Part shown: in pieces, positions 15,997 through 31,545 of the stretch
Layout of the letters: each line of letters opens with the position of its first letter
How positions within the stretch are numbered: the first letter of the stretch is position 1
Assembly: GCF_022808855.1 (NCBI RefSeq)
Contig: NZ_JAKZLF010000043.1
Coordinates: 1-35,735 of the forward strand
From: Anaeromyxobacter soli
Lineage (GTDB): Bacteria > Myxococcota > Myxococcia > Myxococcales > Anaeromyxobacteraceae
DNA: 35,735 nucleotides
Reading direction: 5' to 3'
Program-made: the position numbers and the translations under genes
The notes under the pieces: generated by a model
What the model saw: only the letters and a program-made list of their open reading frames with translations
Databases searched by the model: none
Told to the model about the DNA's origin: nothing

Positions 15997-16938
15997 TCAC
16001 GGTACGACGAGGGCGATCCCGGGTCCCGTGGCCACCCGCACCCGCGCCCGCGCTTCGTACAGGTCGCCGTCCACCGTGAAGCGGATCCCGTCGCCCTCCG
16101 CGACGAGCTCGCGCGCGACCTCGTCCTGCGCCAGCGCGCGGCGCCAGGGCGCGCCGCGCCGGATGCGCGGGAGCGAGAGCGCGAGCGGGAGCAGCCCCGC
16201 GGTGAGCCCGATCGCGTGGAACGAGCCGGGCTGCTCGGCGCAGCGCGCGAAGGCCTTGAAGCCGAACCCGATGTCCGGCGTCGCGCCGGCCACGAGCGCG
16301 AGGTACGGCACGTCGGGCCACTCGTCGCCGTCGGTGACCACCCGCAGCCGCTGGCGCCGCACCAGCGCCTCGGCGAACGGGCCGCCCGCGATCGCGGAGC
16401 CGATGGCGCGCAGCACCAGGGCCGCGGCGGTCGCGGGCGAGGTGCGGCCGGTGGCGTAGTACGCCTCGAGGAAGGCCACCACCGCGCCCGTGCCGAAGAT
16501 GAACCCGTACATGGGCGGCCCGTCGTCGGCGGAGACGGCGAGGAGGTCCCGCTCGACCGTGCGCAGCGGGTGACCGGCGCGCCGCCTGACCAGCACCTCC
16601 CGCAGGATCCGCTCGGGGCGCCCGCGGATGTGGTGCCCGTGGGCGACGGTGTTCATCGAGCCGCCGCGCAGGGGCAGGAGCCGCGGGAGCGGCGCCCCGC
16701 CGTAGGCGCGCGCGAACGCGGTGAGCACCACGTGCGCCGTGCCGTCGCCCCCGTTCACGCCGAGGACGTCGATCCCGGCCGCGCGGAAGCGCGCGACGGC
16801 CCGGGCGAGCTCGGCGGGCGTGGAGGCGTCGATCACCTCGCCGTCGTCCCCGAGCAGCGCGCGAAGCCGGCCGGCGATGCGGGGGTCGCGCCGGTTGCGC
16901 CGCGACCGCGGGTTGTTCACGATCCCGATGCCGCCCAT
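15997..16938 (-). CDS. Diacylglycerol kinase-like lipid kinase (DAGK catalytic domain)
   Basis: A 313-residue protein of the DgkB/YegS family. IGIVNNPRSRRNR at the N-terminus, GVNGGDGTAHVV (near 60, the GGDGT ATP site) and PLRGGSMNTVAHG (near 92) are family hallmarks; the C-terminal beta domain with FTVDGDLYEA follows. It probably phosphorylates diacylglycerol or a related lipid at the inner membrane face. The frame is open upstream to 17013, but ATG 16938 follows GGAGGGCAGGG and fits the family start. That start codon overlaps the start of trmL on the other strand. The PP2C gene follows 24 bp downstream. Confidence 0.85.
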   Translation of the reverse strand: MGGIGIVNNPRSRRNRRDPRIAGRLRALLGDDGEVIDASTPAELARAVARFRAAGIDVLGVNGGDGTAHVVLTAFARAYGGAPLPRLLPLRGGSMNTVAHGHHIRGRPERILREVLVRRRAGHPLRTVERDLLAVSADDGPPMYGFIFGTGAVVAFLEAYYATGRTSPATAAALVLRAIGSAIAGGPFAEALVRRQRLRVVTDGDEWPDVPYLALVAGATPDIGFGFKAFARCAEQPGSFHAIGLTAGLLPLALSLPRIRRGAPWRRALAQDEVARELVAEGDGIRFTVDGDLYEARARVRVATGPGIALVVP

Positions 16939-17425
16939 GCCGACCCTGCCCTCCGTCGACCCGCCCTTCCAGATCGTCCTCGTGGCGCCGCAGATCCCGC
17001 CGAACACCGGCAACGTCGCGCGGACCTGCGCCGTGACCGGCGCGGCGCTCCACCTCGTCGGGCCGCTCGGGTTCTCGCTCGACGAGAAGCAGCTGCGCCG
17101 GGCCGGGCTCGACTACTGGCCGGAGGTCGCCCCTGCGATCTACCCGGACTGGAGCGACTTTGAGGCCCGGACGCTCCGCGGTCAAATCGAAAAGCTGCAC
17201 CTCTTCACGGCCCGCGCGGAGCGGGGCCTGTTCGAGGTGCGCTTCGCTCCGGGTGACTTCCTCGTCCTCGGCCAGGAGCAGCTCGGGCTCCCGCCGGCGC
17301 TGCTCGCCGCTTGGCCCGAGCGGCAGGTGGGGATCCCGATGCGCGAGGGCATGCGCAGCCTGAACCTCGCGGTGGCGGCGGGAGTGGCGCTGTACGCGGC
17401 GCTGGCGTCCGTTCGCGGAGCGTGA
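16937..17425 (+). CDS. trmL: tRNA (cytidine(34)-2'-O)-methyltransferase TrmL (SPOUT)
   Basis: A 162-residue SPOUT methyltransferase, close to E. coli TrmL (157). The three knot motifs are present: PQIPPNTGNVARTCA near 20, VLGQEQLGLP near 107 (Glu instead of the more usual FGxE spacing) and MREGMRSLNLAVAAG near 138. It should methylate the ribose of wobble position 34 in leucine tRNAs with SAM. ATG 16937 and ATG 16928 are both possible and neither has a ribosome-binding site. The start codon overlaps that of the divergent lipid kinase gene, so its promoter must lie inside that gene. The next gene begins 25 bp downstream. Confidence 0.88.
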   Translation: MPTLPSVDPPFQIVLVAPQIPPNTGNVARTCAVTGAALHLVGPLGFSLDEKQLRRAGLDYWPEVAPAIYPDWSDFEARTLRGQIEKLHLFTARAERGLFEVRFAPGDFLVLGQEQLGLPPALLAAWPERQVGIPMREGMRSLNLAVAAGVALYAALASVRGA

Positions 17426-17435
17426 CCCGCGGGTG

Positions 17436-17441
17436 TAACAT
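17436..17441 (+). promoter_or_regulatory. -10-like TAACAT before the PATAN-DnaJ gene (leaderless type)
   Basis: TAACAT ends 9 nt before ATG 17451, with no Shine-Dalgarno sequence between. It lies in the 25-bp gap after trmL, so the gene may have its own promoter and a leaderless transcript. Confidence 0.4.
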
Positions 17442-17450
17442 GCCCCGCCC

Positions 17451-19118
17451 ATGAGCTTGCTCGACGCGCCCGGCGATCTCTCGCGGACGCCGCTCGCCGC
17501 CGTGCTGGTCGAGGCGCGCGAGCGCCGCGCGAGCGGCGTGCTCGAGATCGCGCACGGAGGCGGCACCTCGCGGCTGTGGTTCCACGACGGGGCGCCGGTG
17601 GGCGCCCAGGTGTTCGTCGGCTTCCGGCCGCTCGGGCACATGCTCCTCGCCGCCGGCGTCATCGACATCGACGCGCTGTCGCTCAGCCTGGTGCGCATGG
17701 CCGAGACGCGCCGGCCGCACGGCGAGATCCTGGTGGCGATGGGCGCGGCCTCGCGGGAGCAGGTCGAGCACGCGCTCGAGGAGCAGCAGGCGGGGTACGT
17801 CGCCCAGCTCGCGGCGCTGCCCGCCGGGCCGTTCGCGTTCGAGGCGAGCGCCGCGGTGCCGGAGTGGACGCGCGCCGGCCTCCTCTCGCCGCTGCGCGTC
17901 CTCGCCGACGCGCTCGCGGCGCCGCAGGCGGCGGACCTCGTGAGCGTCACGCTGCGCGCCGCGGAGGCGGGCGCGAAGCTCGCGGACGTCTACGCGGACG
18001 CCGAGCCGGAGCTGGCGCGCGGGCTCGCCGCGGCCGAGCGCAGGCTCGTCGCGCGGCTCGCCGCGCCGCTCCCGCTCGACGCCTACCTCGCCGCGTCCGA
18101 GGTGCCGCCGGAGCGCGCCCTCGCGCTCCTCGCGGCGCTGCTCCTCCTCGACCTCGCGGCGCCGGCGACGGCGGGGGAGCGGACGGTGCCCACGCTCGTG
18201 CTCGAGTCGCCGCCCGGAGCCGACGGCGCGGGGGCCGCGGCCGCCCCGCCGGCGGCGCGAGCCCAGGCCACCGGCGAGCGCCGGAGCGATCCCGCGGAGG
18301 CGCGCGCGCGGCGCCAGCGTCTCCTCCAGCGCGGGATGCGGAACCTGGGCGTGGGGCCGTTCGGCGGACGGCCGGCGGGCGCCCCGGCGCAGCCCGCCCC
18401 GCCGTCGGGAGCGCTCCCGCCCGGCGTCACGGGTGCGTCGCCGCCGGACGCCGATGGAGCCCTGCGCGAGGCGCTGCGCGCGGCCGCCCCGCGCGCGAGG
18501 GAGAAGGATCTCTTCGCGCGGCTGGGGCTCCCGGACGGCGCCGGGAAGGACGAGGTGAAGCGCGCCTTCCTGGACCTCGCGCGGCGGTTCCACCCCGACC
18601 GGTTCGCGAGCCCGTCGATGGCGGACCTGGCCGGCACGGTGCGCGAGCTCTTCTCCGCGGTGAACGAGGCGTACGAGGTGCTCTCCCACCCGAAGAAGCG
18701 CGCCGAGTACCTCGCGCGGCGGGCCGGGGCGGCGTCGGCGCACGACGAGGCGGCGCGCGCCGACTTCGAGAAGGGCGAGGCGTGCCTGCGCACGCGCGAT
18801 CTCGCCCGGGCCCGGGCGTTCTACGAGGCGGCGGTCCGCGCCGATCCGAGGCCGGAGTACCAGGCGGCGCTCGCCTTCGCCTGCCTCTCCGACCCGCGCG
18901 CCCGGGATCGCGAGCGCGCTCGCGCGCTGCTCGAGGAGGCCACGAAGGACCCGGCCTGCGACCGCGCCTTCTACGTCGCCGGCCTCCTGGCGCGGGACGA
19001 GGGCGACGACGCGAGCGCCGAGCGGCTGCTCCGGGCCGCGCTCCGGACGAACCCGCGCCACGTCGACGCGGTGCGCGAGCTGCGCGCGCTCGCGACCCGC
19101 CGCGCCGACGGGCGCTGA
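17451..19118 (+). CDS. PATAN/DUF4388 - J-domain - TPR protein
   Basis: A 555-residue cytoplasmic protein. The N-terminus (about 8-130) has the DUF4388/PATAN pattern (LAAVLVEARERRASGVLEI, LWFHDGAPVGAQ). A long Ala-rich and Pro-rich segment follows (about 140-345). The J domain occupies about 353-420, with HPDRF at 381-385 carrying the HPD needed to stimulate DnaK. The rest (about 425-550) is TPR-like helical repeats. Such proteins are seen in myxobacteria and relatives and have no assigned role; a DnaK co-chaperone at a signalling complex is a fair guess. It is adjacent to a response regulator with the same PATAN domain. ATG 17451 has no ribosome-binding site. Confidence 0.75.
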   Translation: MSLLDAPGDLSRTPLAAVLVEARERRASGVLEIAHGGGTSRLWFHDGAPVGAQVFVGFRPLGHMLLAAGVIDIDALSLSLVRMAETRRPHGEILVAMGAASREQVEHALEEQQAGYVAQLAALPAGPFAFEASAAVPEWTRAGLLSPLRVLADALAAPQAADLVSVTLRAAEAGAKLADVYADAEPELARGLAAAERRLVARLAAPLPLDAYLAASEVPPERALALLAALLLLDLAAPATAGERTVPTLVLESPPGADGAGAAAAPPAARAQATGERRSDPAEARARRQRLLQRGMRNLGVGPFGGRPAGAPAQPAPPSGALPPGVTGASPPDADGALREALRAAAPRAREKDLFARLGLPDGAGKDEVKRAFLDLARRFHPDRFASPSMADLAGTVRELFSAVNEAYEVLSHPKKRAEYLARRAGAASAHDEAARADFEKGEACLRTRDLARARAFYEAAVRADPRPEYQAALAFACLSDPRARDRERARALLEEATKDPACDRAFYVAGLLARDEGDDASAERLLRAALRTNPRHVDAVRELRALATRRADGR

Positions 19119-19224
19119 GCCCGGATCGCACCGGCCGGCCGGGCGGTCGTCGCCTTGACTGACGCGCGAATCCCGGGCGAGATCAGCCGCGGCGGCGCCG
19201 GCGCGGCGCCGGAAAGGCGACACC

Positions 19225-21321
19225 TTGGCGAAGCAGCACCTGCTCCTCGTCGACGGCGATCCCAAGTCACTGCGCGTGATGGAGGTCTCGCTCAAGAAGG
19301 CGGGCTTCTCCGTCACGACCGCCGTGAACGGCCGCGACGCGCTCGAGAAGTGCGCCATCTCCCCGCCGGACCTCATCCTCTCGGACACCAAGATGCCCGA
19401 GATGGACGGGTTCGAGCTGTGCCGCCGGCTGAAGGAGGACGACCGCCACCGCGGGACGCCGTTCATCTTCCTGACCGGTCAGAAGTCGGTCGAGTTCAAG
19501 GTGAAGGGCCTCGAGCTGGGCGTCGAGGACTACCTGACGAAGCCCATCTACATCAAGGAGATCGTCACCCGCGTGAAGATCCTCCTCGAGAAGCGCGAGA
19601 AGGAGCGCCTCGAGAAGAAGGATCTCAAGGCGAGCTTCGCGGGGAACCTCTCCGACATGGGCGTCGTGGACCTCGTCCAGACGCTGGAGATGGGCAAGAA
19701 GTCGGGCGCGCTGCACGTGCGGAGCAAGCGGGGGGCGCTCGCCATCTGCTACTTCCGCGACGGCCGCATCGTCGACTGCGAGCTCGGCGGGAAGCTCTCC
19801 GGCGAGAACGCGTTCTACCGGCTGCTCAACTGGCAGGACGGGGACTTCGCGATCGAGTTCAAGCCCATCGATCGCGAGGAGCGCATCCCGGTGTCGACGC
19901 AGGGCCTCCTCATGGAGGGCATGCGCCGCATCGACGAGTGGGGGCGGATCGTCGAGCAGCTCCCCGCTCTCGACAAGGTGTTCGAGATCGACGACGCGCT
20001 CCTCGGCGAGCGGCTCGCGGAGATCCCGGACGACGTGAACGCGCTGCTCCGGCTCTTCGACGGCAGGCGGACCCTCGAGCACGTGGTGGAGGAGGCCGAC
20101 TACGACGATCTCGCCGCCGCGGGCGTGATCTCCAAGCTCTTCTTCGAGGGGATCCTCCGCGAGGTCGCGGCGCCGCCTCCGCCCGCGCCCGAGCCGGCCA
20201 CTGCGGCGCCCCGGGTCGCTCCCGCGGTCCGCGAGCTCCGCGCCGCGGAGGCCGCTCCTCCCGTCGCGCCGACCGCGGCGGAGCCCGACGGGGTGGACTG
20301 GTTCGCGGGTCCGGTCCCCCCGACGCCGCGCCCTGCGCGGCCGGAGCCGGCGGCCGCGGCCGAGCGCGCGGAGGCGGAGCGCTCCACCGAGCCTCACGCC
20401 CGTCCGCCCGAGCAGCCCGCCCCCACGCCGCCTCCGGGCGCGTTCCAGCCGGGGAAGTACTCGATGCCGCTGCCGCCGCCGGGCACCCTCCCGCTGCCGC
20501 CGTCGCTGGCCACGCCGAGGGCGAGCGCACCGCGGGCCCCGGCGTCACCCCCCACGCCCGCGCCCACCGATCCGCTGCGCGAGGCCGCTCGGAGCTCGCT
20601 CCCGCCCCGCCGCCCCCGCGCGCCGCTCGCGCTCGCCGCGGCCGCGGTCGTCGCCGTGGGGGGAGGGGCCTTCCTGGCGCTGCGCGGGGGGAGCACGGGC
20701 GCTGGGCCGACCGCGACCGCCGCCCCCACGCCGGCCACGACCCCGCCCCCGCAGACGGTGGCCGCGTCACCGACCCCGACCGCCGCACCGGCCGCGATCC
20801 CGACCCCGGCTCCGGCTCCGGCTTCGGCTCCGACCCCCGCCGCGCTCCCATCCTCCGAATCGAGCCCGCCCTCGACGGCTCGCGAGCCCGCCGCCGCGGA
20901 GCAGCTCCCGGAGGCGCCGCCGCCGCCCGCGCCGCCCGCTCCCGCAAGCGCCCGCTCCGAGGACGCCGACTACCGGCGGTTCCTCGCGAGCGCCGAGCGC
21001 AAGTACGATGCCGGCCGGTTCGTGGACGCGATCGCGGACTACCGGCGCGCGGTCGCGCTGCGGCCGACCGGCCCTGCGAACGTCGGCCTGGCGCGCGCGC
21101 TCTACGACGCGAACCGCTCGGCAGAGGCGCTGCACGCGATCGAGGACGCCATCGCGGTCGACGGCCGCTACGCTCCCGCCTGGCTCCTGCTCGGCGAGCT
21201 CAAGCAGGCGGAGGGGAAGGTCTCCCAGGCGCGCGCCGCCTACCAGCGATTCCTCCAGCTCTCGCCCAACGGAGAGCAGTCGCGCGCAGTGCGCGAGATC
21301 CTCGCGAAGCAGCTCAGGTAG
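19225..21321 (+). CDS. Response regulator with PATAN/DUF4388, one membrane helix and C-terminal TPR
   Basis: A 698-residue protein starting at TTG 19225, chosen because GGAAAGG lies 7 nt upstream. An intact receiver domain covers 1-125 (Asp10, Asp12, phospho-acceptor Asp54, Thr84, Lys106). DUF4388/PATAN covers about 135-315. A long Pro/Ala linker (316-465) follows, then a single hydrophobic helix (about 467-487), a second Pro/Ala/Thr-rich stretch, and TPR repeats (about 575-697). With the receiver in the cytoplasm, the TPR part would lie in the periplasm. No output DNA-binding domain is present, so signalling is probably by protein contact. The partner kinase is not in this window. Confidence 0.82.
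20804..20838 (+). repeat. Low-complexity GGCTCC repeats inside the response-regulator gene
   Basis: Imperfect tandem hexamers (GGCTCC) encode a Pro-Ala run in the second linker of the response regulator. It is the likely place for slippage-driven length change between strains. Confidence 0.5.
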
Positions 21322-21393
21322 TCCCGGCGCGTTCCGCGGCCGGCGAGCCGTCGAGTGGGGGCGAACCCGCTCGCGCCCGCCGCCCGGCCGGGT

Positions 21394-21399
21394 TAGGTT
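21394..21399 (+). promoter_or_regulatory. -10-like TAGGTT before tsaD (leaderless type)
   Basis: TAGGTT ends 9 nt before ATG 21409 in the 87-bp gap after the response-regulator gene. No Shine-Dalgarno sequence is present at the usual distance. A weak 7-bp stem (about 21353-21372) upstream may end the previous transcript. Confidence 0.4.
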
Positions 21400-21408
21400 C
21401 CGGCCGCG

Positions 21409-22410
21409 ATGAAGATCCTCGCCATCGAGACCTCCTGCGACGAGACCGCGGCCGCCGTGGTCGAGGATGGGCGGCGCGCGCTCGCCGACGTGGTCGCCAC
21501 GCAGATCGAGATCCACCGCCGCTGGGGCGGGGTCGTGCCGGAGCTGGCGAGCCGGAACCACGTCGTCCAGGTGATGCCCGTCGTCGACGAGGCGCTCTCG
21601 CGGGCGGGGGTGGGGCCGGACGGGATCGACGCGATCGCGGTCACGAGCGGGCCGGGCCTCGTGGGCGCGCTCCTCGTCGGCGTCCAGGCCGCCAAGGCGC
21701 TCGCGCTCGCCTGGCAGAAGCCGCTCGTGCGCGTGAACCACCTCGAGGGCCACCTCGTGGCGGCCTTCCTCTCCGAGACGGCGCCGGCGTTTCCGTACCT
21801 CGGCCTCGTGGTGTCGGGCGGCCACACGTCGCTCTACTCCGCGGAGCGCTTCGGAGCGTACCGGCTCCTCGGCCAGACCCGCGACGACGCCGCAGGCGAG
21901 GCGTTCGACAAGGGGGCGAAGCTGCTCGGCCTGCCGTACCCCGGCGGCATCGCGATCGACCGGCTCGCCAGGGAAGGCGACGCCCGCGCGATCCGCTTCC
22001 CGAAGGCGATCGTGAAGGGCTCGGAGCTCGACTTCAGCTTCTCGGGCCTCAAGACCTCGCTCCTGCACCACGTGAAGAAGCACGGGGTGCCGGAGGGCAG
22101 GGGGCTCGCGGACCTGTGCGCGAGCTACCAGGAGGCCATCGTCCGCGCGCTCGTCGAGAAGGCGTTCCGCGCGGCGCGCCGCCTCCAGTTCGACCGGCTC
22201 GTCCTCGCCGGCGGCGTCGCCGCGAACAGCCGGCTGCGCGCGGCGGTGTCGGAGAAGGCGGCCGAGTACGAGGGCATGGAGGTGTTCCTGCCCGCCCCCA
22301 GGCTCTGCACGGACAACGCGGCGATGATCGCCGTCGCCGGCACGCACGCGTTCCTCCGCGGCGAGCGCGCGGGCTCGGACCTCAACGCGGACCCCGCATG
22401 GCGCCTGTGA
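21409..22410 (+). CDS. tsaD: tRNA N6-threonylcarbamoyladenosine transferase TsaD
   Basis: A 333-residue TsaD/Kae1 protein of usual length. It transfers the threonylcarbamoyl group to A37 of ANN-decoding tRNAs, working with TsaB and TsaE, which are not in this window. Visible motifs are the ASKHA start LAIETSCDETAAAVV (4-18), HLEGH (111-115) holding the metal-binding histidines, VVSGGHTSLY near 135, DKGAKLLGLPYPGG near 172, and LAGGVAANSRLR near 265. ATG 21409 lacks a ribosome-binding site but has a -10-like element at 9 nt. Its 3' end overlaps rsmA by 13 bp, so the two are co-translated. Confidence 0.95.
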   Translation: MKILAIETSCDETAAAVVEDGRRALADVVATQIEIHRRWGGVVPELASRNHVVQVMPVVDEALSRAGVGPDGIDAIAVTSGPGLVGALLVGVQAAKALALAWQKPLVRVNHLEGHLVAAFLSETAPAFPYLGLVVSGGHTSLYSAERFGAYRLLGQTRDDAAGEAFDKGAKLLGLPYPGGIAIDRLAREGDARAIRFPKAIVKGSELDFSFSGLKTSLLHHVKKHGVPEGRGLADLCASYQEAIVRALVEKAFRAARRLQFDRLVLAGGVAANSRLRAAVSEKAAEYEGMEVFLPAPRLCTDNAAMIAVAGTHAFLRGERAGSDLNADPAWRL

Positions 22411-23294
22411 CGAGCGCACCTCCCGCCGCCGCGGCCCGCTACCCGAGCCCCCGCGCGCTCCTCGAGAAGTACGGGCTCCGCGCGAAGAAGAGCTGGGGCC
22501 AGAACTTCCTCGGCGACGAGGCGATCCTGGACGACATCGCCCGCCTCGCCGCGCCGCGCGCCGGCGATCGCGTGGTCGAGCTCGGCGCCGGCCTCGGCCA
22601 CCTCACCGCCCGGCTCCTCGCCCGCGGCGCGGAGGTGATCGCCGTCGAGCGCGACCGGGACATGGCCCGCGTCCTGCGCGGGGAGCTCGGCCAGCGCGTC
22701 CGGCTCCTGGAGGCCGACGCCGCGCGGATCGACTACGGGGAGGTCGCGCGGGCCTTCGAGGCGCCGGCCGCGCCCGCGGGCTCCGCTCGGCGCCTCGCGG
22801 TCGTCGGCAACCTGCCGTACCACCTCACGAGCCCGATCCTCTTCTCGCTGCTCGACCAGCTCGACCACGTCTCCCGCGCGGTCTTCCTGCTGCAGCGCGA
22901 GGTGGCCGAGCGGCTCGCGGCGGCGCCGGGGACCCGCGACTGGGGGCTCGCGTCGGTGCTCCTGCAGCGGGAGGCCGACGTCTCCGTCGAGCGGATCGTC
23001 CCGCCGGGCGCGTTCCTGCCGCCGCCCAACGTGGAGAGCGCCGTGCTCTGCGCGCTCTTCCGCCCGCCCGGCGACGCGCTCCGCGTGGCGGATCCGGCCC
23101 GCTTCCGCCGGCTCGTGAAGGCCGGCTTCGCCCAGCGCCGGAAGACGCTCGCCAACGCGCTGCGCGCCGGTCGCGTGGTGCCGGACGACGCGCTCGCTCG
23201 CGCGCTGGAGGCCGCGGGCATCGACCCCTCCCGCCGCGGCGAGACCCTCACCGTCGCCGAGTGGGCCGCCCTGGACCGCGCTCTGGGGACCTAG
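22398..23294 (+). CDS. rsmA: 16S rRNA (adenine1518/1519-N6)-dimethyltransferase RsmA/KsgA
   Basis: A 298-residue KsgA-family enzyme that dimethylates two adenines in the 3' hairpin of 16S rRNA during late 30S assembly. KKSWGQNFL (30-38) is the N-terminal signature, VELGAGLGHLT (60-70) the SAM site, and NLPYHLTSPI (138-147) the catalytic motif; FLPPPNVESAV and FAQRRKTLAN follow. ATG 22398 lies inside the end of tsaD; a GTG at 22407, overlapping the tsaD stop as GTGA, is an alternative start. Coupling to tsaD groups two RNA-modification functions. The gene is followed by a 386-bp stretch of repeats. Confidence 0.94.
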   Translation: MAPVTSAPPAAAARYPSPRALLEKYGLRAKKSWGQNFLGDEAILDDIARLAAPRAGDRVVELGAGLGHLTARLLARGAEVIAVERDRDMARVLRGELGQRVRLLEADAARIDYGEVARAFEAPAAPAGSARRLAVVGNLPYHLTSPILFSLLDQLDHVSRAVFLLQREVAERLAAAPGTRDWGLASVLLQREADVSVERIVPPGAFLPPPNVESAVLCALFRPPGDALRVADPARFRRLVKAGFAQRRKTLANALRAGRVVPDDALARALEAAGIDPSRRGETLTVAEWAALDRALGT

Positions 23295-23317
23295 ACCTCA
23301 AATCGGACCGAACACCC

Positions 23318-23584
23318 GCGAGGCGCACGAGACGGGAGCCGAGACGGCACCCGCAGCGAGGCGCGCCGAGGCGCTCCTTCGACGGGAGCCGCGCCCAGCG
23401 GCGCCTGGCAGTGCGCCGCAGGCGCAACGAGCGAGGACGCCCGTCGCAGGCCCGCGCTCGAGATCGAACGCGGCGCGAGGCGCACGAGACGGGAGCCGAG
23501 GCGGGCAACCGCAGCGACGCGCGCCGAGGCGTACTGCTTCCGTACGCCGCAGGCGCAAGGAGCGAGGACGCCCGCCGCAGGCCC
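23318..23584. repeat. Two degenerate copies of an intergenic repeat with internal hairpins
   Basis: Copy 1 (23318-23453) and copy 2 (23475-23584) share GCGAGGCGCACGAGACGGGAG at their left ends (one 20-base identity plus), CGCGCCGAGGCG in the middle and GAGCGAGGACGCCCG near the right ends, with internal length differences. Copy 2 contains a hairpin, about 23529-23558, whose arms include GTACGCC/GGCGTAC-type pairing. The gap 23295-23680 has no supportable gene; apparent frames in it change between copies. It looks like a dispersed extragenic repeat element, present here as a tandem pair. Confidence 0.65.
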
Positions 23585-23604
23585 CGTATCGTGCGCCGTA
23601 GCAG

Positions 23605-23668
23605 TTCACGGGCGCCCACCCGCTATCTCCGCCCGCCCTACCCCTTCAGTCGGGAGGGCGCCCGTGAA
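23605..23668. terminator. 13-bp perfect inverted repeat with 38-bp spacer
   Basis: TTCACGGGCGCCC at 23605-23617 is exactly reversed at 23656-23668. It lies 13-78 bases past the stop of the small gene on the minus strand, so a long terminator or RNA stem for that transcript is the simplest reading. There is no U tract, and a role as an element end or attachment site is not excluded. Confidence 0.4.
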
Positions 23669-23680
23669 ACTCGACGGCCG

Positions 23681-23947
23681 CTAGGGGCCGAACGTCGTGC
23701 GCGCGGTGGCGAGGAGCAGGCTCATGCCGCGAGCGCCGTTCTCGCCGAGGTAGTGCTGGAAGGCGACCGGGTCGAGCCGCATGGACTCGACCGTCCTCGC
23801 GACGATCGCGTCGTAGCTCGGCGCGTTCGGCTTCTTGAGCTCGAGCGCGATCTTGAGGATGGCGCGATGGAAGGCCGGGTCGACCCGGGCCTCCACCGTC
23901 TCCCGCACCGTCACGGACCGCTCCCGCGTCGCGACTCGGCTGGCCAT
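23681..23947 (-). CDS. Hypothetical 88-residue protein (orphan, strongly promoted)
   Basis: An unrecognised 88-residue soluble protein, basic at the start (MASRVATRERSVTVR) with helical character after that, including AILKIALELKKP and SYDAIVARTVESMRLD. No signal peptide, membrane helix, zinc motif or clear helix-turn-helix is visible. ATG 23947 is preferred because GGGGAGG lies 9 nt upstream; ATG 23965 would add six residues. Support for reality is the strong ribosome-binding site, a near-consensus promoter at 23994-24022 and a dyad just upstream of it. The gene stands alone, diverging from dNK and followed by repeats. It may be a small regulator of itself or of the divergent operon; this is conjecture. 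Confidence 0.65.
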   Translation of the reverse strand: MASRVATRERSVTVRETVEARVDPAFHRAILKIALELKKPNAPSYDAIVARTVESMRLDPVAFQHYLGENGARGMSLLLATARTTFGP

Positions 23948-23993
23948 CTCGCGCTGCCTCCCCATCCCTCGTCCGCACTGCAAAAGTGCTGCG

Positions 23994-24022
23994 ACGATAC
24001 GTGACGTGACATCGCCTGTCAA
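23994..24022 (-). promoter_or_regulatory. Near-consensus sigma-70 promoter of the 88-residue gene
   Basis: On the minus strand a perfect TTGACA (24022-24017) and TATCGT (23999-23994) are separated by exactly 17 bp, about 46 bp before ATG 23947. This is the best promoter match in the window. The spacer contains GTCACGTCACG, a repeated half-site that a repressor could use. Confidence 0.7.
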
Positions 24023-24031
24023 CGGACACCC

Positions 24032-24045
24032 TGATCCCAGGATCA
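24032..24045. promoter_or_regulatory. Operator-like dyad TGATCC-CA-GGATCA
   Basis: A 6-bp inverted repeat with a 2-bp centre lies 9 bp upstream of the -35 box, and another GGATC half-site follows at about 24048. The position suits an activator or autoregulator of the 88-residue gene or of the divergent dNK operon. Function is inferred. Confidence 0.35.
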
Positions 24046-24132
24046 CGGGATCCACGATCATTTTGTCACGGTCTCGGTCGAACGGCGCGCCCCGCGTCCA
24101 GTCGCCGCGCTGCCTTGCGACCCCCGCCCCGC

Positions 24133-24149
24133 CGTGGCAAGCTGCCACG
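24133..24149. promoter_or_regulatory. Inverted repeat CGTGGCA-AGC-TGCCACG upstream of dNK
   Basis: A perfect 7-bp inverted repeat with a 3-bp centre ends 16 bp before the dNK start, in a stretch with no clear promoter. It could be an operator or a small RNA stem in the leader. Confidence 0.35.
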
Positions 24150-24165
24150 CTTTCGCGCATCCGGA

Positions 24166-24813
24166 ATGGAACGACCCAGGTACATCGCGGTCGAGGGGCC
24201 CATCGGCGTCGGCAAGACGACGCTCGCGCAGGTGCTCTCCGAGCGGCTCGGGGCGCGCCTCGTGCTCGAGCACGCCGAGGAGAACCCGTTCCTCGCGAGC
24301 TTCTACGGCGACCGGCGCAAGCACGCGTTCCAGGCCCAGCTCTTCTTCCTGCTCTCGCGCTTCCAGCAGCAGCAGGCCCTCTTCCAGCAGGACCTGTTCA
24401 CCCAGTCCACGATCGCGGACTACCTGTTCGCGAAGGACCGGATCTTCGCCGCGCTCACCCTGTCGCCCGACGAGCTGGCGCTGTACGATCGCGTGTACGA
24501 GCTGCTCGGGCCCCGCATCGTGAAGCCCGATCTGGTCGTGTACCTGCAGGCGCGGACCGACGTGCTCGTCTCCCGTGTCCGCAGGCGCGGCCGGGATTTC
24601 GAGCGATCCGTCGATTCGTCCTACCTCGAGACGCTCGCCAAGGCGTACGGTGACTTCTTCTTCCACTACGACGAATCGCCGCTCCTCGTCGTCAACACGA
24701 GCGACATCGATCTCGAGCAGAACCCGCAGGATCTCGAGGCGCTCCTGGCCGTGATCCGGCGGCACCGCAAGGGAACCCAGCATTACGTGCCCATGGGCAC
24801 GCCAACGTATTAA
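24166..24813 (+). CDS. Deoxynucleoside kinase family protein
   Basis: A 215-residue P-loop kinase of the dNK/dGK/dCK family. GPIGVGKTT (11-19) is the Walker A loop, LEHAEENPFL (34-43) fits the family ERP/E-N-PFL region, DRVYELL (108-114) follows, and RRRGRDFERS (139-148) is the arginine-rich lid. It should phosphorylate a deoxynucleoside, probably a purine type, in the cytoplasm. Upstream frame extends to 24115 but similarity starts at ATG 24166; the ribosome-binding site is weak. It heads the run dNK-panB-panC-smpB, with 63 bp to panB. Confidence 0.85.
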   Translation: MERPRYIAVEGPIGVGKTTLAQVLSERLGARLVLEHAEENPFLASFYGDRRKHAFQAQLFFLLSRFQQQQALFQQDLFTQSTIADYLFAKDRIFAALTLSPDELALYDRVYELLGPRIVKPDLVVYLQARTDVLVSRVRRRGRDFERSVDSSYLETLAKAYGDFFFHYDESPLLVVNTSDIDLEQNPQDLEALLAVIRRHRKGTQHYVPMGTPTY

Positions 24814-24876
24814 GGATAACGAACCTCGCCAATGGGCAGGACCCCGCCACGGGGCCTACACCGGAGGAAGCGAGCC

Positions 24877-25797
24877 ATGTCCAGCCAGACCGCGCCGCGA
24901 AAGCGGGTCACCGTCCACGAGCTTCGCAGGATGAAGGACGCCGGCGAGAAGATCGCCGTCGTCACCGCCTACGACGCGACCGCCGCCCGCCTCGCCGACG
25001 CCGCCGGCGTCGACGCCGTGCTCGTCGGCGACTCGCTCGGCATGGTGGTGCAGGGCCAGGACTCGACCCTGCCCGTCACGCTCGAGCACATGATCTACCA
25101 CTCGGCCGCCGTGCGCCGCGGCCTCGCCCGCGGGGCCGGCCGGGCCCACCTCGTCGGCGACCTGCCCTTCGGCAGCTACCAGGCGAGCGCCGACGACGCG
25201 GTGAAGGCGGCGGTGCGCCTCGTCGCGGAGGGCGGGGTCGAGGCGGTGAAGCTCGAGGGCGGCGCCGAGTTCGTCGAGGTGATCCGCCGCATCGTCCGCG
25301 CCGGCGTGCCGGTGATGGGGCACATCGGGCTCACCCCGCAGTCGGTCCACCGCATGGGCGGCTACGTGGTGCAGGGGAAGGACTCGGAGAAGGCGCAGCA
25401 GCTCCTCCGGGACGCGCGCGCGCTCGAGCTCGCGGGCTGCTACGCGGTCGTGCTGGAGTGCATCCCCACCGAGCTGGCGCGCATCATCTCGAGCCAGCTC
25501 CGCATCCCGACCATCGGCATCGGCGCAGGCCCGCACTGCGACGGGCAGGTGCTCGTCCTGAACGACCTCCTCGGCATGGACGACGCGTTCACGCCCAAGT
25601 TCGTGAAGCGCTTCGGCGAGATCGGGCAGGCGGTCACCGCCGCCCTGGGCGCGTACGTCGGCGAGGTGAAGCGCCGCGCGTTCCCCGACGACGCGCACAG
25701 CTTCCACTCCTCGTCGGTGCGGCTCGTCCCGGTCGCGGCGGAGCAGGACGAGGACGACTCCGAGCCCTCCGGCGGCGTCATGGGCGCACCGGTGTAG
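24877..25797 (+). CDS. panB: 3-methyl-2-oxobutanoate hydroxymethyltransferase PanB
   Basis: A 306-residue ketopantoate hydroxymethyltransferase, first committed step of pantothenate and CoA synthesis, using 5,10-methylene-THF. Mg-binding GDS (51-53), VKLEGG (124-129; Lys125, Glu127), MGHIGLTPQ (147-155; His149) and VLECIP (192-197; catalytic Glu194) are all present. Typical PanB is about 265-285 residues; the extra length is an acidic C-terminal tail after [10 protein letters not shown]. Start ATG 24877 follows GGAGG at 9 nt, although the frame is open from 24832. panC follows after 51 bp. Confidence 0.94.
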
Positions 25798-25848
25798 CCT
25801 CCCCGCGCGCCGCGCCCGGCGCCACGAAAGCCAGCCAGCCCTCCCGAG

Positions 25849-26718
25849 ATGAAAGCACCCGAGCTCATCACCGATCCCGCCGTCTGGCAGGCGCGCTGCT
25901 CCGCGGCGCGCGACGGCGGCGCCCGCCTCGCGCTCGTCACGACGATGGGGTTCCTCCACGACGGCCACCTCTCGCTCATGCGTGAGGCGCGCGCGCGCGC
26001 GGACGCCGGCGGGCGGCGCGGCCTCGTGCTCGCGTCGATCTTCGTGAACCCCACGCAGTTCGGGCCGAACGAGGATCTCTCCCGCTACCCCCGCGATCTC
26101 GAGGGGGATCTCGCCAAGTGCGCGTCGGCCGGCGTCGACTGGGTCCTCGCGCCGACCGACCCGAGCGCGATGTTCCCTCCCGATCACCAGACCTGGGTGA
26201 CGGTCGAGCGCGCGTCGCAGGGGCTGTGCGGCGCCTCGCGGCCGGGCCACTTCCGAGGCGTCGCGACGGTGGTCGCGAAGCTGCTCAACCTGTCCCGGCC
26301 GCACGTCGCGCTCTTCGGGGAGAAGGACTTCCAGCAGCTGGCGGTGATCCGCGCGATGACGCACGACCTCGCGATGGGGGTCGAGATCGTGGGGATGCCC
26401 ATCGTGCGCGAGCCGGACGGGCTCGCCCGCTCCTCGCGGAACGCCTACCTGTCGAGGGAGGAGCGGGAGCGGGCGCTCTCGCTCTCCCGCACCCTGCGCG
26501 AGGCGGCGGACGCCGCGCTCCGCGGCGAGCGGGACGCGGCGGCGCTCGTGGCGCGGGCCCGGGCGCGCCTCGACGCCGCGGGCCTCCGCGTGGACTACGT
26601 GGAGATCGTCCACCCCGACTCGCTCGCGCCGGTCGCGCGGGCGGAGCGCGGGAGCGTGATGCTGGTCGCGGCCTACGCCGGGGCGACGCGCCTCATCGAC
26701 AACCTCCGGCTGCCATGA
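25849..26718 (+). CDS. panC: Pantothenate synthetase PanC
   Basis: A 289-residue ATP-dependent ligase joining pantoate and beta-alanine, the last step of pantothenate synthesis. It belongs to the class I nucleotidyltransferase fold: TTMGFLHDGHLSL (31-43) is the HxGH site (His37, His40), FVNPTQFGPNEDLSRYPR follows near 65, LFGEKDFQQL near 158 and SSRNAYLS near 193 is the KMSKS-like loop. Length is normal. No good ribosome-binding site is seen, so it probably depends on translation from panB. Its stop overlaps the smpB start as ATGA. Aspartate decarboxylase (PanD) is not in this window. Confidence 0.94.
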   Translation: MKAPELITDPAVWQARCSAARDGGARLALVTTMGFLHDGHLSLMREARARADAGGRRGLVLASIFVNPTQFGPNEDLSRYPRDLEGDLAKCASAGVDWVLAPTDPSAMFPPDHQTWVTVERASQGLCGASRPGHFRGVATVVAKLLNLSRPHVALFGEKDFQQLAVIRAMTHDLAMGVEIVGMPIVREPDGLARSSRNAYLSREERERALSLSRTLREAADAALRGERDAAALVARARARLDAAGLRVDYVEIVHPDSLAPVARAERGSVMLVAAYAGATRLIDNLRLP

Positions 26719-27206
26719 GCGCGAAGGCCACCGGCGGCGCGCGAGGCGCGGAGGGCGAGAAGATCGTCGCGACGAATCGTCGCGCCCGCTTCGACTTCTC
26801 CATCGAGGACTCGTGGGAGGCGGGGCTCGTCCTCACCGGCAGCGAGGTGAAGTCGCTCCGGGAGGGGAACGTGAACCTCTCCGACGCCTACGCGCTGCCC
26901 AGGGGCGACGAGCTCTTCCTCGTGAACTGCCGGATCGGCGAGTACAAGCAGGCGGCGCACTTCGGCCACGAGCCGCTGCGCGACCGGAAACTCCTCATGA
27001 GCCGGGCCGAGCTCGACCGCGTCCGCGGCAAGGTCGAGCAGCGCGGCTACACGCTCGTCCCGCTCAGCCTCTACTTCAAGGGCGGGTGGGCCAAGGTCGA
27101 GCTCGGTCTCGCGAAGGGGCGCGCCCACGAGGACCGGCGCCACGCCATCGCGGAGCGCGAGACGAAGCGCGAGATGGACCGCGCGCTCTCCCGCCGACGG
27201 CGCTGA
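26715..27206 (+). CDS. smpB: SsrA-binding protein SmpB
   Basis: A 163-residue SmpB, the partner of tmRNA in rescuing stalled ribosomes. IVATNRRARFDFSIEDSWEAG near 17-37, LTGSEVKSLREGNVNLSDAY near 40-59 and the basic tail DRRHAIAERETKREMDRAL are family hallmarks. The first 15 residues are a variable extension. It starts inside the panC stop (ATGA overlap), so its translation is coupled to panC, an unusual partner for this gene. No tmRNA gene (ssrA) is visible in the 136 bp downstream. Confidence 0.94.
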   Translation: MSAKATGGARGAEGEKIVATNRRARFDFSIEDSWEAGLVLTGSEVKSLREGNVNLSDAYALPRGDELFLVNCRIGEYKQAAHFGHEPLRDRKLLMSRAELDRVRGKVEQRGYTLVPLSLYFKGGWAKVELGLAKGRAHEDRRHAIAERETKREMDRALSRRRR

Positions 27207-27321
27207 CGTCGCGCTCCGCCGGGTCCCGGCTCACCGGGCGCTCGCAGGCCCTGCCGCTCCCTCCACCGGGTGGTACCCGCGCCTCTCGTTGGGGCGCGCG
27301 CTCCGGGGAGCGGCTCTGCTC

Positions 27322-27330
27322 TGCTAGCTT
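27322..27330 (+). promoter_or_regulatory. Extended -10 TGC-TAGCTT before the HD gene
   Basis: TGC-TAGCTT ends 12 nt before ATG 27343 and no Shine-Dalgarno sequence is present. It is the widest spacing of the start-proximal -10 set in this window and would leave a leader of only about 5 nt. Confidence 0.35.
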
Positions 27331-27342
27331 GGACCGGGCGAC

Positions 27343-28248
27343 ATGTTCGATCGCCTGACGCTCACCCACGACATCGTCGACATTCGCGGCGCGCTCGTCG
27401 CGCGGCGCGGGACGGTGATCTCTCCCGAGTCGATCGCGGACGCGGCCCACCGCGCGCCGGCGCTGCCCCGCCGCAGGCTCGCCGAGACCGAGCTCGCGCG
27501 GGACGTCGACGCGCCGCTCGGGGCGGCGGAGTACCGGCACCTCTTCCACGGCGACGCGGTGCGCGAGGCCGTGGCGCGCGCCCTGGGCAACGCCCTCTTG
27601 CCGGACGTGCTCGTCGAGGAGCTCGTCGCGGCGCGGCGGGAGGCCGCCGCGGTGCACGCGCACGCCTTCGCCGCCGCCGCCGCCGCGGTGCGGATGCTCC
27701 TGTCGGCGGTGGGCACGGCGCGCGGCGTCCCCGACCTCGCCGCCGCGGCCCTGCTCCACGATCTCGGCATGCGACACCTCCCGCCGCGGCTCCTCGCGCC
27801 GGCCGAGCGGCTCTCGCGAGAGGACGCGCTGCGTGTGGCGGCGCACCCGCTCACGGGGGCGTATCACCTCGCGACCGTGCTCGGCGCTCACCCCGCGGTC
27901 GCCGCGGCGCGCAGCCACCACTGGCGCTGCGGGCAGGGCTACCCCGCGCTCGGCGTGGCGCCCTCGCGCTCCATCGAGGTGGTCTCGGTCGCGAGCGCCT
28001 TCGCGGCGCTCACCCAGCCGCGCGCCTTCCGCTCCGCCGCCTACAGCGCGCGCGGCGCGGCGGACGTGCTCGTCTCGGAGGCCGCCCTCGGGCACGCCGA
28101 CACGAACACCGTCCGGCTGCTCGTGCACGCGCTCCGCGGCGGCCGGGGCGACCCGCGCGCGGTGAGGTTCGGGCACGTGCGCGAGGGGCACGCGCCGGAG
28201 CACAATCGATACGCACCGGTCGAGGTGCCGGCGCGGGCGTATGTCTGA
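27343..28248 (+). CDS. Degenerate HD-GYP-like domain protein
   Basis: A 301-residue protein with an HD-GYP-like core. LLHDLGMRHLPPRLL (137-151) carries the HD pair, HPLTGAYHL starts at 168, and HHWRCGQGYP (192-201) replaces the standard HHExxDGxGYP: Glu is Trp and the Asp of DG is Cys. The GYP is kept. HD-GYP proteins are cyclic-di-GMP phosphodiesterases; loss of two metal-site residues suggests reduced or no activity, or use as a c-di-GMP-related binding protein. The N-terminal about 100 residues resemble the leader region of DUF3391-type HD-GYP proteins only loosely. It is monocistronic and converges with the DUF971 gene across 27 bp. Confidence 0.72.
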   Translation: MFDRLTLTHDIVDIRGALVARRGTVISPESIADAAHRAPALPRRRLAETELARDVDAPLGAAEYRHLFHGDAVREAVARALGNALLPDVLVEELVAARREAAAVHAHAFAAAAAAVRMLLSAVGTARGVPDLAAAALLHDLGMRHLPPRLLAPAERLSREDALRVAAHPLTGAYHLATVLGAHPAVAAARSHHWRCGQGYPALGVAPSRSIEVVSVASAFAALTQPRAFRSAAYSARGAADVLVSEAALGHADTNTVRLLVHALRGGRGDPRAVRFGHVREGHAPEHNRYAPVEVPARAYV

Positions 28249-28275
28249 TTGAGCGCCGCTCGGCGACCCTCCGCG

Positions 28276-28614
28276 TCAGTCCTTCCAGAGCCCCGACGCG
28301 CGGCGGAGCGTCTCCCACGAGTAGATGCCGGTGTCGTGGCCGTCCGACCAGCGGATCCGGAGCGCGTAGTTGCCCACCGCCTCGAGGCCGAGCGGGCGGA
28401 TGTCGGAGGGGATCGTGGTGGGGTCGAGGAGCTTCCGGCCCGTGCCCTCCTCGACGCAGCCTGCGCAGGGGCAGAAGTCGCGGAGCAGGTGGTTCGGGAG
28501 CGTCACCTCCGGCCCGCCCCGCCAGAGGATGCGGACGCCGCCGTCGACGAGGTCGATCGCCTCGGGCGGTTCGACGTCCTGCTTCTTGAACGACACGCGA
28601 TCGAGGAGGCCCAT
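28276..28614 (-). CDS. DUF971 (GBBH-like N-terminal) protein
   Basis: A 112-residue protein of the DUF971 family (gamma-butyrobetaine hydroxylase-like N-terminal domain). LPNHLLRDFCPCAGCVEEGTG (39-59) contains Cys48, Cys50 and Cys53, a metal-binding pattern, and ALRIRWSDGHDTGIYSW near 83 is the typical second motif. Stand-alone members often occur near Fe-S assembly or Mrp/ApbC genes and are thought to have an Fe-S or zinc role; no such gene is near here. It follows the NRDE gene by 34 bp on the same strand, so the pair is likely one operon. The ribosome-binding site is weak. Confidence 0.85.
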   Translation of the reverse strand: MGLLDRVSFKKQDVEPPEAIDLVDGGVRILWRGGPEVTLPNHLLRDFCPCAGCVEEGTGRKLLDPTTIPSDIRPLGLEAVGNYALRIRWSDGHDTGIYSWETLRRASGLWKD

Positions 28615-28648
28615 GCGCCGCTCTACATGGCGCGGCGGTGGCGGCGCG

Positions 28649-29419
28649 TCAAGCCGTCCGCGCCAGCGCCACCGCGAGCGAGGAGCGGTCCTCGAGCGGC
28701 CCGAGGCAGGGGCGGGCGTCGGCGGTCCAGAGCTCCGAGGTCGCGAGCTCCCGGGTCAGCCGCAGCACCGTCGAGGAGCGCGTCCCGTACGCGGGGTCCA
28801 TGTGGATGCAGGTCGCGGCGCCGGAGGCCGCGGCGCCGCGCGGGGGCACGGGGTCGCCCTCCGGGGCGTGGACGGTGAGCACCTCGCGCAGCCGCTCGAC
28901 GCCGGGGTCGAGCGGCCAGCGCGCCCGCACGAGCGCCGCGCGCGGGCAGCGCCCGTCCCAGGCGTTCTCGGTCACGACGTGCAGGCCGGGGCCGAGCGCC
29001 TCGACGCCCGCGCGCTCGCCGTCGTACCACCACAGGAAGGCGGAGCGTGCGTCGGCGACGACGAGGTGGAAGGGGTTCCAGGCGTCCGGCCGGACGGCGC
29101 CGAACGCGGCGCGCGCGCCCTCCGCCGACCCGGCCGCGAGGGCGAGGGGCACGAGCTCGCCGCGCGAGCGGCGCGCGAGGTCGGGGTACCAGTCGAGGGG
29201 GGCGTGGTAGTTCGTGAGCGCGGCGACGACGCCCGTCCGCGAGAGGCCGATCCAGGTGCCGCCGCCGAGCGCGTCGAGCGGCGCGGCGTAGCGCTCGCCG
29301 CCCGGGAGCGCACGGAGCGCCCAGCCTTCCGACGGCCGCCCGAGCCGCTCGTCGCGGTTCGCCGCCACCACCACCGGCCAGCGGCGATCCGTCCCCAGGG
29401 CGACTGCGAGGGTGCACAT
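28649..29419 (-). CDS. NRDE/TANGO2 family protein
   Basis: A 256-residue member of the NRDE (TANGO2) family. It begins MCTLAVAL, with Cys2 in the position of an Ntn-hydrolase nucleophile, and has AANRDERLGRPS (19-30) with the defining Asn-Arg-Asp-Glu; TWIGLSRTGVVAALTNY near 55 and a C-terminal GTRSSTVL follow. Bacterial members have no firmly assigned substrate; human TANGO2 is linked to lipid and haem handling. ATG 29419 has no ribosome-binding site but TAAGCT lies 9 nt upstream, so it may be leaderless. DUF971 follows 34 bp downstream. Confidence 0.85.
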   Translation of the reverse strand: MCTLAVALGTDRRWPVVVAANRDERLGRPSEGWALRALPGGERYAAPLDALGGGTWIGLSRTGVVAALTNYHAPLDWYPDLARRSRGELVPLALAAGSAEGARAAFGAVRPDAWNPFHLVVADARSAFLWWYDGERAGVEALGPGLHVVTENAWDGRCPRAALVRARWPLDPGVERLREVLTVHAPEGDPVPPRGAAASGAATCIHMDPAYGTRSSTVLRLTRELATSELWTADARPCLGPLEDRSSLAVALARTA

Positions 29420-29428
29420 TCGACGACG

Positions 29429-29434
29429 AGCTTA
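29429..29434 (-). promoter_or_regulatory. -10-like TAAGCT before the NRDE gene (leaderless type)
   Basis: On the minus strand TAAGCT is followed by 9 nt and then ATG 29419. No Shine-Dalgarno sequence is present. No clear -35 is seen. Confidence 0.4.
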
Positions 29435-29477
29435 ACGGCCCGAGCAGGGAAGCGCCCGTCGGGAAACGGCGGGGAGG

Positions 29478-29504
29478 GGGCCCGGCCGCCGAGCGGCCGG
29501 GCCC
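29478..29504 (-). terminator. Terminator hairpin after pckG
   Basis: A perfect 12-bp stem (29478-29489 with 29493-29504) with a CGA loop lies 20 bases past the pckG stop. On the minus strand it is followed by CCCCCTCCCCGCCGTTTCCC, only partly U-rich. It probably insulates the NRDE promoter, about 45 bp further on. Confidence 0.55.
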
Positions 29505-29523
29505 GCTGGGCCGTGTGATCTCG

Positions 29524-31311
29524 CTACTGCACCTTCCGCGCGGAGCGGACGCGCTCGAGCAGGATCTCGCGCTGGAGCGCGATCGGCCGCGGCAGCGTCT
29601 TGCCGAGCTTGTCGAACCACTCCTCCTGCGACTCGAGCTCCTTCTCCCACTCGCCCAGATCGATCCGGGTGGCGGCGGCGACGGCCTCGGGCTTCGCGTC
29701 GATGCCGGAGAGGTCGAGGTCGCCCGCCTTCGGCGTGTAGCCGAGCAGGGTCTCCTGCGCGCCCACGCGGCCAGCGGCGCGATCGAGCATCCACTTCAGC
29801 ACGCGCATGTTGTCGCCGTAGCCCGGCCAGAGGAACTTGCCGTCGGCGCTCTTCCGGAACCAGTTCACCATGTAGACCTTCGGCGGGTTCGGGATGCGCG
29901 ACTGCATGTCGAGCCAGTGCTGGAAGTACGAGCCGGCGTCGTAGCCGCAGAACGGCAGCATCGCCATCGGATCGCGGCGGACGACGCCGACCGCGCCGGT
30001 GGCGGCGGCGGTGGTCTCGGAGCCCATCGTCGCGCCGAGGTAGACGCCGTGCGTCCAGTTGAAGGCCTCGAGGACGAGCGGCACGGTGGTGGAGCGGCGG
30101 CCACCGAAGATCAGCGCCGAGATGGGCACGCCCTTGGGATCGTCGACGAAGGGCGAGAGCGCCGGGTTGTTCCGCGCCGGCGCCGTGAAGCGGCTGTTCG
30201 GGTGCGCCGCCTTCTCGGTCGAGCCCTTCTTCCAGGGCTGTCCCTTCCAGTCGATGAGCTCGGCGGGCGGCTCGGTGTCCCAGCCCTCCCACCAGATGTC
30301 GCCGTCGGCGGTGCGCGCGACGTTCGTGAACAGCGTGTCCTTGCGGACCGAGTCCATCGCGTTCGGGTTCGTCTTGCGGTTCGTGCCCGGCGCGACGCCG
30401 AAGTAGCCGTTCTCCGGGTTCACCGCCCAGAGCCGCCCGTCCTCGCCGACGCGCATCCACGCGATGTCGTCACCGACGGTGCGGATCTTCCAGCCCTTGT
30501 ACGCGGCCGGCGGGATCATCATGGCGAAGTTGGTCTTGCCGCAGGCCGACGGGAACGCGGCGGCGACGTACTGCTTCTCGCCCTGCGGGCTCTCCGCCTC
30601 GAGGATGAGCATGTGCTCGGCGAGCCAGCCCTCGTTCTTCGCGAGGTAGCTCGCGATGCGGAGCGCGAGGCACTTCTTGCCGAGGAGGGCGTTGCCGCCG
30701 TAGCCCGAGCCGATCGACCAGATCGTGTTGTCCTGCGGGAAGTGGCAGATGAAGCGCCTGTCGGGGTTGCAGTCGGCCACGGAGTGGAGGCCGCGGTTGA
30801 ACTCGTCCGACTGGCCGAGCCGGTCGAGCGCGACCTTCCCCATGCGCGTCATGATCCCCATGTTCAGCGCGACGTAGACGGAGTCGGTGAGCTCGAACCC
30901 GACCTTCGAGAACGGCGACGCCGCCGGGCCCATGATGTACGGGACGACGTACATCGTGCGGCCCTTCATCGAGCCTTCGAACAGCTGGCCGAGCTTGTGG
31001 TAGGCCTCCTTCGGCGCCATCCAGTTGTTGGTGGGCCCGGCCTCCTCGCGCGTCGGCGTGCAGATGAACGTGAGGTGCTCGACCCGCGCGACGTCGTTCG
31101 GGTTCGAGTGGTGGTAGTAGCAGCCCGGCCACTTCTTCTGGTCCAGCGGGATGAGGACCTTGGCGGCGACGGCTTCCTCCGTGAGGCGCTTCTTCTCGGC
31201 CTCGGAGCCGTCGCACCAGTACACGCGGTCGGGCTTGCAGAGCTTCGCCATCTCGTCGACCCAGCCGAGGAGATGAGGGTTCGTCGTGGGGCGATCGGAA
31301 GAGGTAGCCAT
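29524..31311 (-). CDS. pckG: Phosphoenolpyruvate carboxykinase (GTP)
   Basis: A 595-residue GTP-dependent PEPCK, converting oxaloacetate to phosphoenolpyruvate with GTP and Mn. Length is normal. The kinase loop FPSACGKTN (253-261) includes the reactive cysteine; [15 protein letters not shown] (200-214), the metal ligands around GDDIAWM (280-286) and [20 protein letters not shown] further on are conserved family stretches. The frame is open to 31389, but ATG 31311 is preceded by AAGGA at 9-10 nt and begins the conserved sequence. In an organism that takes up acetate and other acids, as this window suggests, it is the gateway to gluconeogenesis. It has its own terminator and a 234-bp divergent region shared with treZ. 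Confidence 0.95.
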
Positions 31312-31539: not shown

Positions 31540-31545
31540 CCCGGA

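Follow-up and report, generated by a model that had tools for sequence, protein, structure and literature searches.

A conserved, unnamed small-protein gene of Myxococcota with nearly private promoter elements that may serve its own control

The window analysed here, by which we mean the whole stretch of 35,735 nucleotides, is carried as one contig of a 5.3-Mb genome. It contains a short gene, a member of what we call family A, that is preceded by its own promoter and lies between a convergent gene for a KsgA/RsmA 16S rRNA dimethyltransferase and a divergent gene for a deoxynucleoside kinase (dNK) (Table 1). The 88-codon reading frame, the ribosome-binding site and the promoter that a preliminary description had given for this gene were all borne out by direct reading of the sequence. 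An alternative in-frame ATG is found six codons upstream of 23947; the ATG at 23947 is the start that aligns across relatives, and in most of the 23 genomes of the bacterial family a GGAGG-like stretch, read from the upstream sequences, comes before the start codon.

Table 1. Coordinates of the features discussed, in window positions except for paralogue B
Feature	Position	Strand	Basis or remark
KsgA/RsmA 16S rRNA dimethyltransferase gene, convergent neighbour	22413..23294	+	PF00398, E 1.2e-47; start codon not fixed
Family A gene, 88 aa + stop	23681..23947	-	sequence, homologues, structure model, dN<dS
Ribosome-binding site GGGGAGG	23957..23963	-	9 nt before ATG; read from sequence
Candidate operator: tandem repeats TGTCA-CGTCA-CGTAT-CGTCG spanning spacer and -10	23992..24011	-	self-similarity at lags 5 and 10
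Sigma-70-type promoter TTGACA-17-TATCGT	23994..24022	-	-35 TTGACA at 24022-24017, -10 TATCGT at 23999-23994, spacer 17 nt; consensus scan and conservation
Dyad TGATCCCAGGATCA, candidate second operator	24032..24045	.	ends 9 bp upstream of -35
Possible divergent dNK promoter TTGCGA-17-CAAGCT	24115..24143	+	by eye, conserved blocks in 9-genome alignment
Deoxynucleoside kinase (dNK) gene, divergent neighbour	24166..24813	+	PF01712, E 2.6e-39
Paralogue B in the window's genome	L170:6031-6240 (G000:C6:57030-57239)		unnamed family, wide in phylum

The gene is not the orphan that the preliminary description made of it. A single-sequence search returned homologues in 34 of 60 genomes, namely the window's own (which is also counted in the order, phylum, B-profile and dyad tallies below), every one of the genus's 8 other genomes, 14 of the 15 remaining ones of the bacterial family and 11 beyond. 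Therefore 22 of the 23 other genomes of the bacterial family carry the gene, the one without a match being G016. Among the named relatives with a homologue are Anaeromyxobacter terrae SG22, whose protein is 97% identical, Anaeromyxobacter sp. PSR-1 and A. oryzae. The possibility, raised at the outset, of no homologue anywhere is contradicted by the profile search, which found homologues phylum-wide. A profile of 19 rows, to which the window protein matches at E 8.4e-36 (being itself one of the rows), gave matches in 123/145 genomes at the order level and 137/195 at the phylum level; both tallies include two genomes matched solely via a B-type paralogue (G030 and G028, loci L085 and L107), the phylum tally includes one doubtful genome (G167), and the scoring of the best 26-36 candidates per genome makes misses possible. 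Judging from these matches, the majority of the myxobacterial genomes covered have a family A gene, as a rule in a constant chromosomal place. Within the genus dN was lower than dS in 12/12 pairs compared, indicating that the gene is under protein-level constraint. In this analysis the small-protein family, with its paralogues A2 and B, was seen in Myxococcota only, other phyla being covered by one close-relative scan. A viral origin was considered and rejected, since viral contigs scanned with a diverse A profile yielded no relative among 92 candidate stretches. Our literature search, with subscription papers largely outside its scope, found no description of family A.

The gene had also been regarded as an isolated accessory unit, a view at odds with its conserved place. 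The usual position is between tsaD-ksgA and dNK-panB-panC-smpB, and in 43 loci chosen from the family A matches ksgA was found within 6 kb of the gene in 36, on the opposite strand in 35 of these (L068 is the sole locus where both run in the same direction). Genes for dNK, panB or panC lie within 6 kb in 40/43 loci and are divergent in all 40. One or other neighbour is near the gene in 42/43 loci, the exception being L074, which has neither. We assigned genes to family A by a profile match together with a place between ksgA and dNK/panB/panC, and both were found for the window gene. The stretch from ksgA to the gene, 23300-23630, is a mosaic of dispersed repeats. It has 33 matches in the window's own genome, itself counted, and the best of the other copies are 90-95% identical over ~125-141 bases. 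On the other side, a perfect inverted repeat, GTGGCA-AGC-TGCCAC (24134-24148), overlaps the -10 of the possible dNK promoter, and among nine aligned genomes both of its halves are present in L001-L003 only.

Two sets of paralogues were found. A2, the closer one, is present in G149, G150 and G152. Family B, with proteins of ~70 aa, was found by following weak second matches of family A, and profile-profile comparison joins the two families over 65 columns (probability 98, E 1.7e-13). The B profile matches 151/195 genomes of the phylum, a tally in which some weak matches probably represent A genes. In all of the 13 B loci compared a YidC-like ORF was found near B, and in 8 of the 13 there was an MnmE-like one. 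The B gene of the window's own genome begins roughly where a jag-like ORF stops, and an rsmG-like ORF follows it, in a region that also holds dnaN-, dnaA-, rnpA-, yidD- and yidC-like ORFs; these names, like those of the other neighbours of B, are ones that we presume from the look of the sequences.

The preliminary description spoke of a small protein of unknown family. This stands in so far as the named libraries are concerned, and fails in that a conserved family was found by profile. Searches of Pfam with the window protein, 19 A members, 8 further and 11 B members gave a best E of 0.077, below the cut-off; NCBIfam gave no significant match for the window protein and five others, nor did PHROGs for the window protein. 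Two candidates, GatC in NCBIfam (E 0.21) and a RexA-like PHROG (E 0.23), were set aside as chance-level matches. Neither the window protein nor any of the 19 A members matched a MerR-type winged helix-turn-helix (HTH) of Pfam, and three profiles searched against PDB sequences gave chance matches only (best E 0.15). Scanning all of the window against Rfam with gathering scores gave no match.

Structure prediction, which the preliminary description had proposed as a check, yielded three helices and weak structural matches. From six alignment rows AlphaFold2 places helices at residues 24-37, 45-55 and 60-85, the last being of low confidence from about residue 80, with a mean pLDDT of 68 for the whole protein and 79.6 for the core alone. 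The models are all helix and contain no strands, as read from six alignment rows and with an N-terminus of low confidence. This N-terminus (residues 1-20) is basic and, judging from the model, probably disordered. Foldseek returned nothing below E 2.7 for either model, and the structural lists from VIA reached Z <=4.3 for one model and Z <=5.9 for the core, a range that the tool calls common and that speaks neither for nor against a family. At the top of the list for the core are a phage protein, one annotated as a putative DNA-binding protein, a chain of an RNA-polymerase complex, AldR and TnpE (Z 4.5-5.9); going by their titles most of these bind DNA or take part in transcription, and we take them to be mostly helix-turn-helix proteins. 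AldR (of the Lrp kind), the Rrf2-family protein BC1842 and TnpE have a three-helix core arranged like that of family A (Z 4.5-4.8 to the core model), but no sequence similarity was found and the arrangement is a common one. The models thus weakly suggest a three-helix core domain that is HTH-like in shape.

For the consensus used, the promoter is indeed the strongest in the window, as had been claimed, there being no other promoter-like site in the scan. One site was returned from 16000-35735, this one (shuffle mean 0.4), and none from 1-16000; the possible dNK promoter was not returned. Taken alone, a lone promoter-like site in the window is no more than chance allows. The promoter goes beyond chance because it is conserved across the upstream regions of relatives: TTGAC-17/18-TA-N-N-GT is present upstream of the gene in 23/23 genomes of the bacterial family (the window and 22 others), against a mononucleotide-shuffle expectation of 0.0004 per sequence, the 23 sequences being related. 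The strict pattern was also found in 12/12 distant loci (L065-L076) and in 16/46 elsewhere, made up of 10/26 in L085-L110, a tally that includes two B loci, and 6/20 in L130-L149. Many of the remaining loci, of Myxococcus type, carry the variant TTGCGC-17-TACGGT. The promoter is kept from Polyangia-like loci to Anaeromyxobacter, and the window's own genome has one further place with TTGAC and TATCGTC at promoter spacing. Six loci from other genera (L089, L100, L102, L103, L105 and L109) have the ATG ~six bases after a -10-like hexamer, an arrangement that suggests leaderless messages there.

The spacer and -10 carry a further feature that is absent from the preliminary description. In many lineages they consist of tandem repeats with a 5- and 10-bp period, in which the letters vary and the period stays; the array of a Polyangia-like relative, for example, reads TGTAT-GGCAT-TGTAT-TGTAA. 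At Myxococcus-type loci the gene and the promoter variant are kept, with little or no array. The periodicity was measured by base identity at fixed lags, starting from 29 sequences and requiring a 17-nt spacer, which dropped L090, L095 and L096. Among the resulting 26 related sequences from 25 genera (two from one genus), identity was 0.54 at lag 5 and 0.55 at lag 10 vs 0.28 and 0.27 in shuffles that ignore relatedness, and 0/2000 shuffles reached as high. Lags 8 and 12 were at background, and lag 15 was slightly up (0.34 vs 0.26, 0/2000).

As the array patterns were drawn from these same promoters, their rarity elsewhere is the sole real test. A 17-mer from Polyangia-like promoters, allowed up to one mismatch, was found at 29 places in 15 genomes (15 places for the backward control), and 11 of the 29 immediately precede family genes (8 A and 3 A2). 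All 7 exact matches are so placed (6 A, 1 A2), and the remaining 18 places, checked for adjacent family genes only, are about as many as in the backward control. A stricter 20-mer gave 7 places in 13 genomes, against 0 for the backward control; by their coordinates, 6 of the 7 are family A promoters. The 17-mer found the A promoter in 8/15 genomes and missed it in 7/15, and the 20-mer found it in 6/13; both missed the window's own. A third pattern, scanned against the window's own genome alone, gave zero matches, the last base of the array in the window being a different one. The window's genome matches none of the three patterns because its copy has diverged, and what the array test shows is therefore rarity elsewhere in relatives rather than a match in the window. 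Across the scanned genomes the array is nearly private to family genes. The three A2 loci (L180, L190 and L202, in three distant genomes) have the array upstream and were found by DNA pattern alone; this array could be promoter homology left over from duplication. Moreover, the array pattern spans the -10, so that part of its conservation is promoter conservation. We also considered a basic C-terminal tail that co-varies with the array, and rejected it: KRGY/RRRY tails accompany arrays outside the Anaeromyxobacter family, and that family has arrays without such tails.

The second candidate operator is the TGATCC/GGATCA dyad that the preliminary description had noticed upstream of the -35. TGATC-N4-GATCA is found exactly upstream of 19/23 genes of the bacterial family, for which the shuffle expectation, with one mismatch allowed and the sequences being related, is 0.003. 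It is absent in one genus (L015, L016, L020 and L023) and, even with one mismatch, from all 58 loci tested outside the bacterial family. A scan of 24 genomes gave 25 places with the dyad, 19 of which are at this gene, against 2 places for a backward control, and the copy at the gene is the sole one in 16 of the 19 genomes that carry it there; some of these genomes are incomplete (lowest 66%), so that a sole copy means one within the sequenced part. Both extra dyads of the window's own genome are elsewhere, one just after an ORF and one inside a kinase-like ORF, and four further extra copies fall in other genomes. The dyad ends 8-10 bp before the -35 in 12/19 genomes and lies 57-80 bp away in 7/19, where it may therefore serve dNK instead; from its position it may serve A, dNK or both. 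In L010, L011, L012, L013, L021 and L022 there is a second GATC dyad with one mismatch, 22-23 bp or ~two helical turns from the exact one.

Operator-like elements nearly restricted to family promoters are thus present, the array in relatives and the dyad in a set that includes the window, and pattern scans of genomes with array and dyad gave no convincing further targets of a regulon. The gene is real, conserved, without a name and probably regulated. It is the nearly private cis elements that suggest regulation, and such rare promoter signals may mean that the protein controls its own gene.

We consider it close to an even bet that the family A protein is a small autoregulating DNA-binding protein. 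It would be made from the sigma-70-type promoter as a predicted compact, three-helix, HTH-like domain with a basic N-terminal tail. Several copies would bind side by side on the tandem repeats over the spacer and -10, and the bound copies would block RNA polymerase and thereby keep the amount of the protein constant. The upstream GATC dyad would, in the Anaeromyxobacter lineage, be a second gene-specific control site. What we infer here is that DNA is bound at all, that this protein is what binds it, that binding represses and does not activate, and whatever wider role there may be. The array lies on the -10, tracks the gene and A2 and is rare elsewhere, and the simplest account is therefore that the gene product binds it.

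Alternatively, a separate regulator might read the near-private operators, the small protein being a mere target that works elsewhere in the cell. This seems to us rather unlikely. Gene-specific operators alone do not name their binder, and the isoelectric points of two B proteins (6.3 and 8.1) and of one Polyangia A protein (6.6, i.e. not basic) are unusual for DNA binders, but a regulator with about one target per genome, tracking the gene and A2, is less economical than self-binding.

Somewhat further down we would place a housekeeping role for the small protein, in translation or in the maturation of ribosomes, with a conserved promoter that simply secures expression. The vicinity of A to ksgA and tsaD would fit such a role, as would the position of B after yidC and near ORFs that presumably are jag-, rsmG- or mnmE-like. 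However, A converges on ksgA and diverges from dNK and thus has no operon link to them, and no ribosomal or RNA-binding relative was found in the Pfam, NCBIfam and PDB-sequence searches. Moreover, a housekeeping role leaves the periodic array and the rare dyad unexplained.

It is improbable that the protein is a protein-protein module acting on another regulator, whether through an antirepressor-like helical hook of the SinI kind or a UBA-like three-helix domain. SinI is a short helical hook with a pattern similar to that of the family, and the 11 B members gave one match each to SinI (E 0.14), UBA_9 (E 0.16) and SAM_SMF (E 0.077). Such E-values are at chance level, though: no match to SinI (PF08671) was above the cut-off for the window protein, the 19 A or the 11 B members, and 0/19 A members matched any of the three at E up to 1. 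To a lineage-specific accessory orphan we give almost no weight, as the window protein lacks a named Pfam, NCBIfam or PHROGs family but its gene is phylum-wide, syntenic and constrained at the protein level.

For the autoregulatory reading, two known systems offer comparison. BldC of Streptomyces is a 68-residue MerR-like regulator that is reported to bind direct repeats in DNA as cooperative multimers (PMC5859096). It is thus about the same size as the family A protein and binds in the mode that we propose for the array, and a small three-helix protein on repeats spaced by half and whole turns makes cooperative side-by-side binding of the BldC kind a fair model. BldC is MerR-related and from another phylum, whereas the family A model has no strands and its DNA binding is a proposal. 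Closer to home, CdbA and CdbB of Myxococcus xanthus are reported to be small paralogous nucleoid proteins, of which CdbA is essential, binds DNA at a direct-repeat motif at many genomic sites and has a ribbon-helix-helix fold with an N-terminal strand (PMC7156744). CdbA/CdbB resemble families A and B in being small paralogous myxobacterial proteins; they differ in that CdbA has an N-terminal strand, whereas the A models (six rows, low-confidence N-terminus) are all helix, and in that CdbA occupies many genomic sites, whereas the candidate operator of family A is nearly private. CdbA did not come up among the PDB sequences searched by profile with E allowed up to 10.

A broader version of autoregulation, which we regard as doubtful, would make A and B a new DNA-binding family of Myxococcota whose copies form a short filament on 5-bp repeats spaced half a helical turn apart. 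In this version A, at ksgA-dNK, would control its own promoter, and together with B, at yidC-jag and near dnaA, would be a nucleoid or growth regulator missed by the family libraries. The Myxococcota are a phylum noted for predation and multicellular life, and a small unnamed gene that is found in the same place across much of this phylum and is missing from the family libraries searched is likely a core component. Elsewhere in the window, 17451-21321 holds two adjacent DUF4388 genes, one of which combines a DnaJ domain with TPRs and the other a response-regulator receiver with TPRs.
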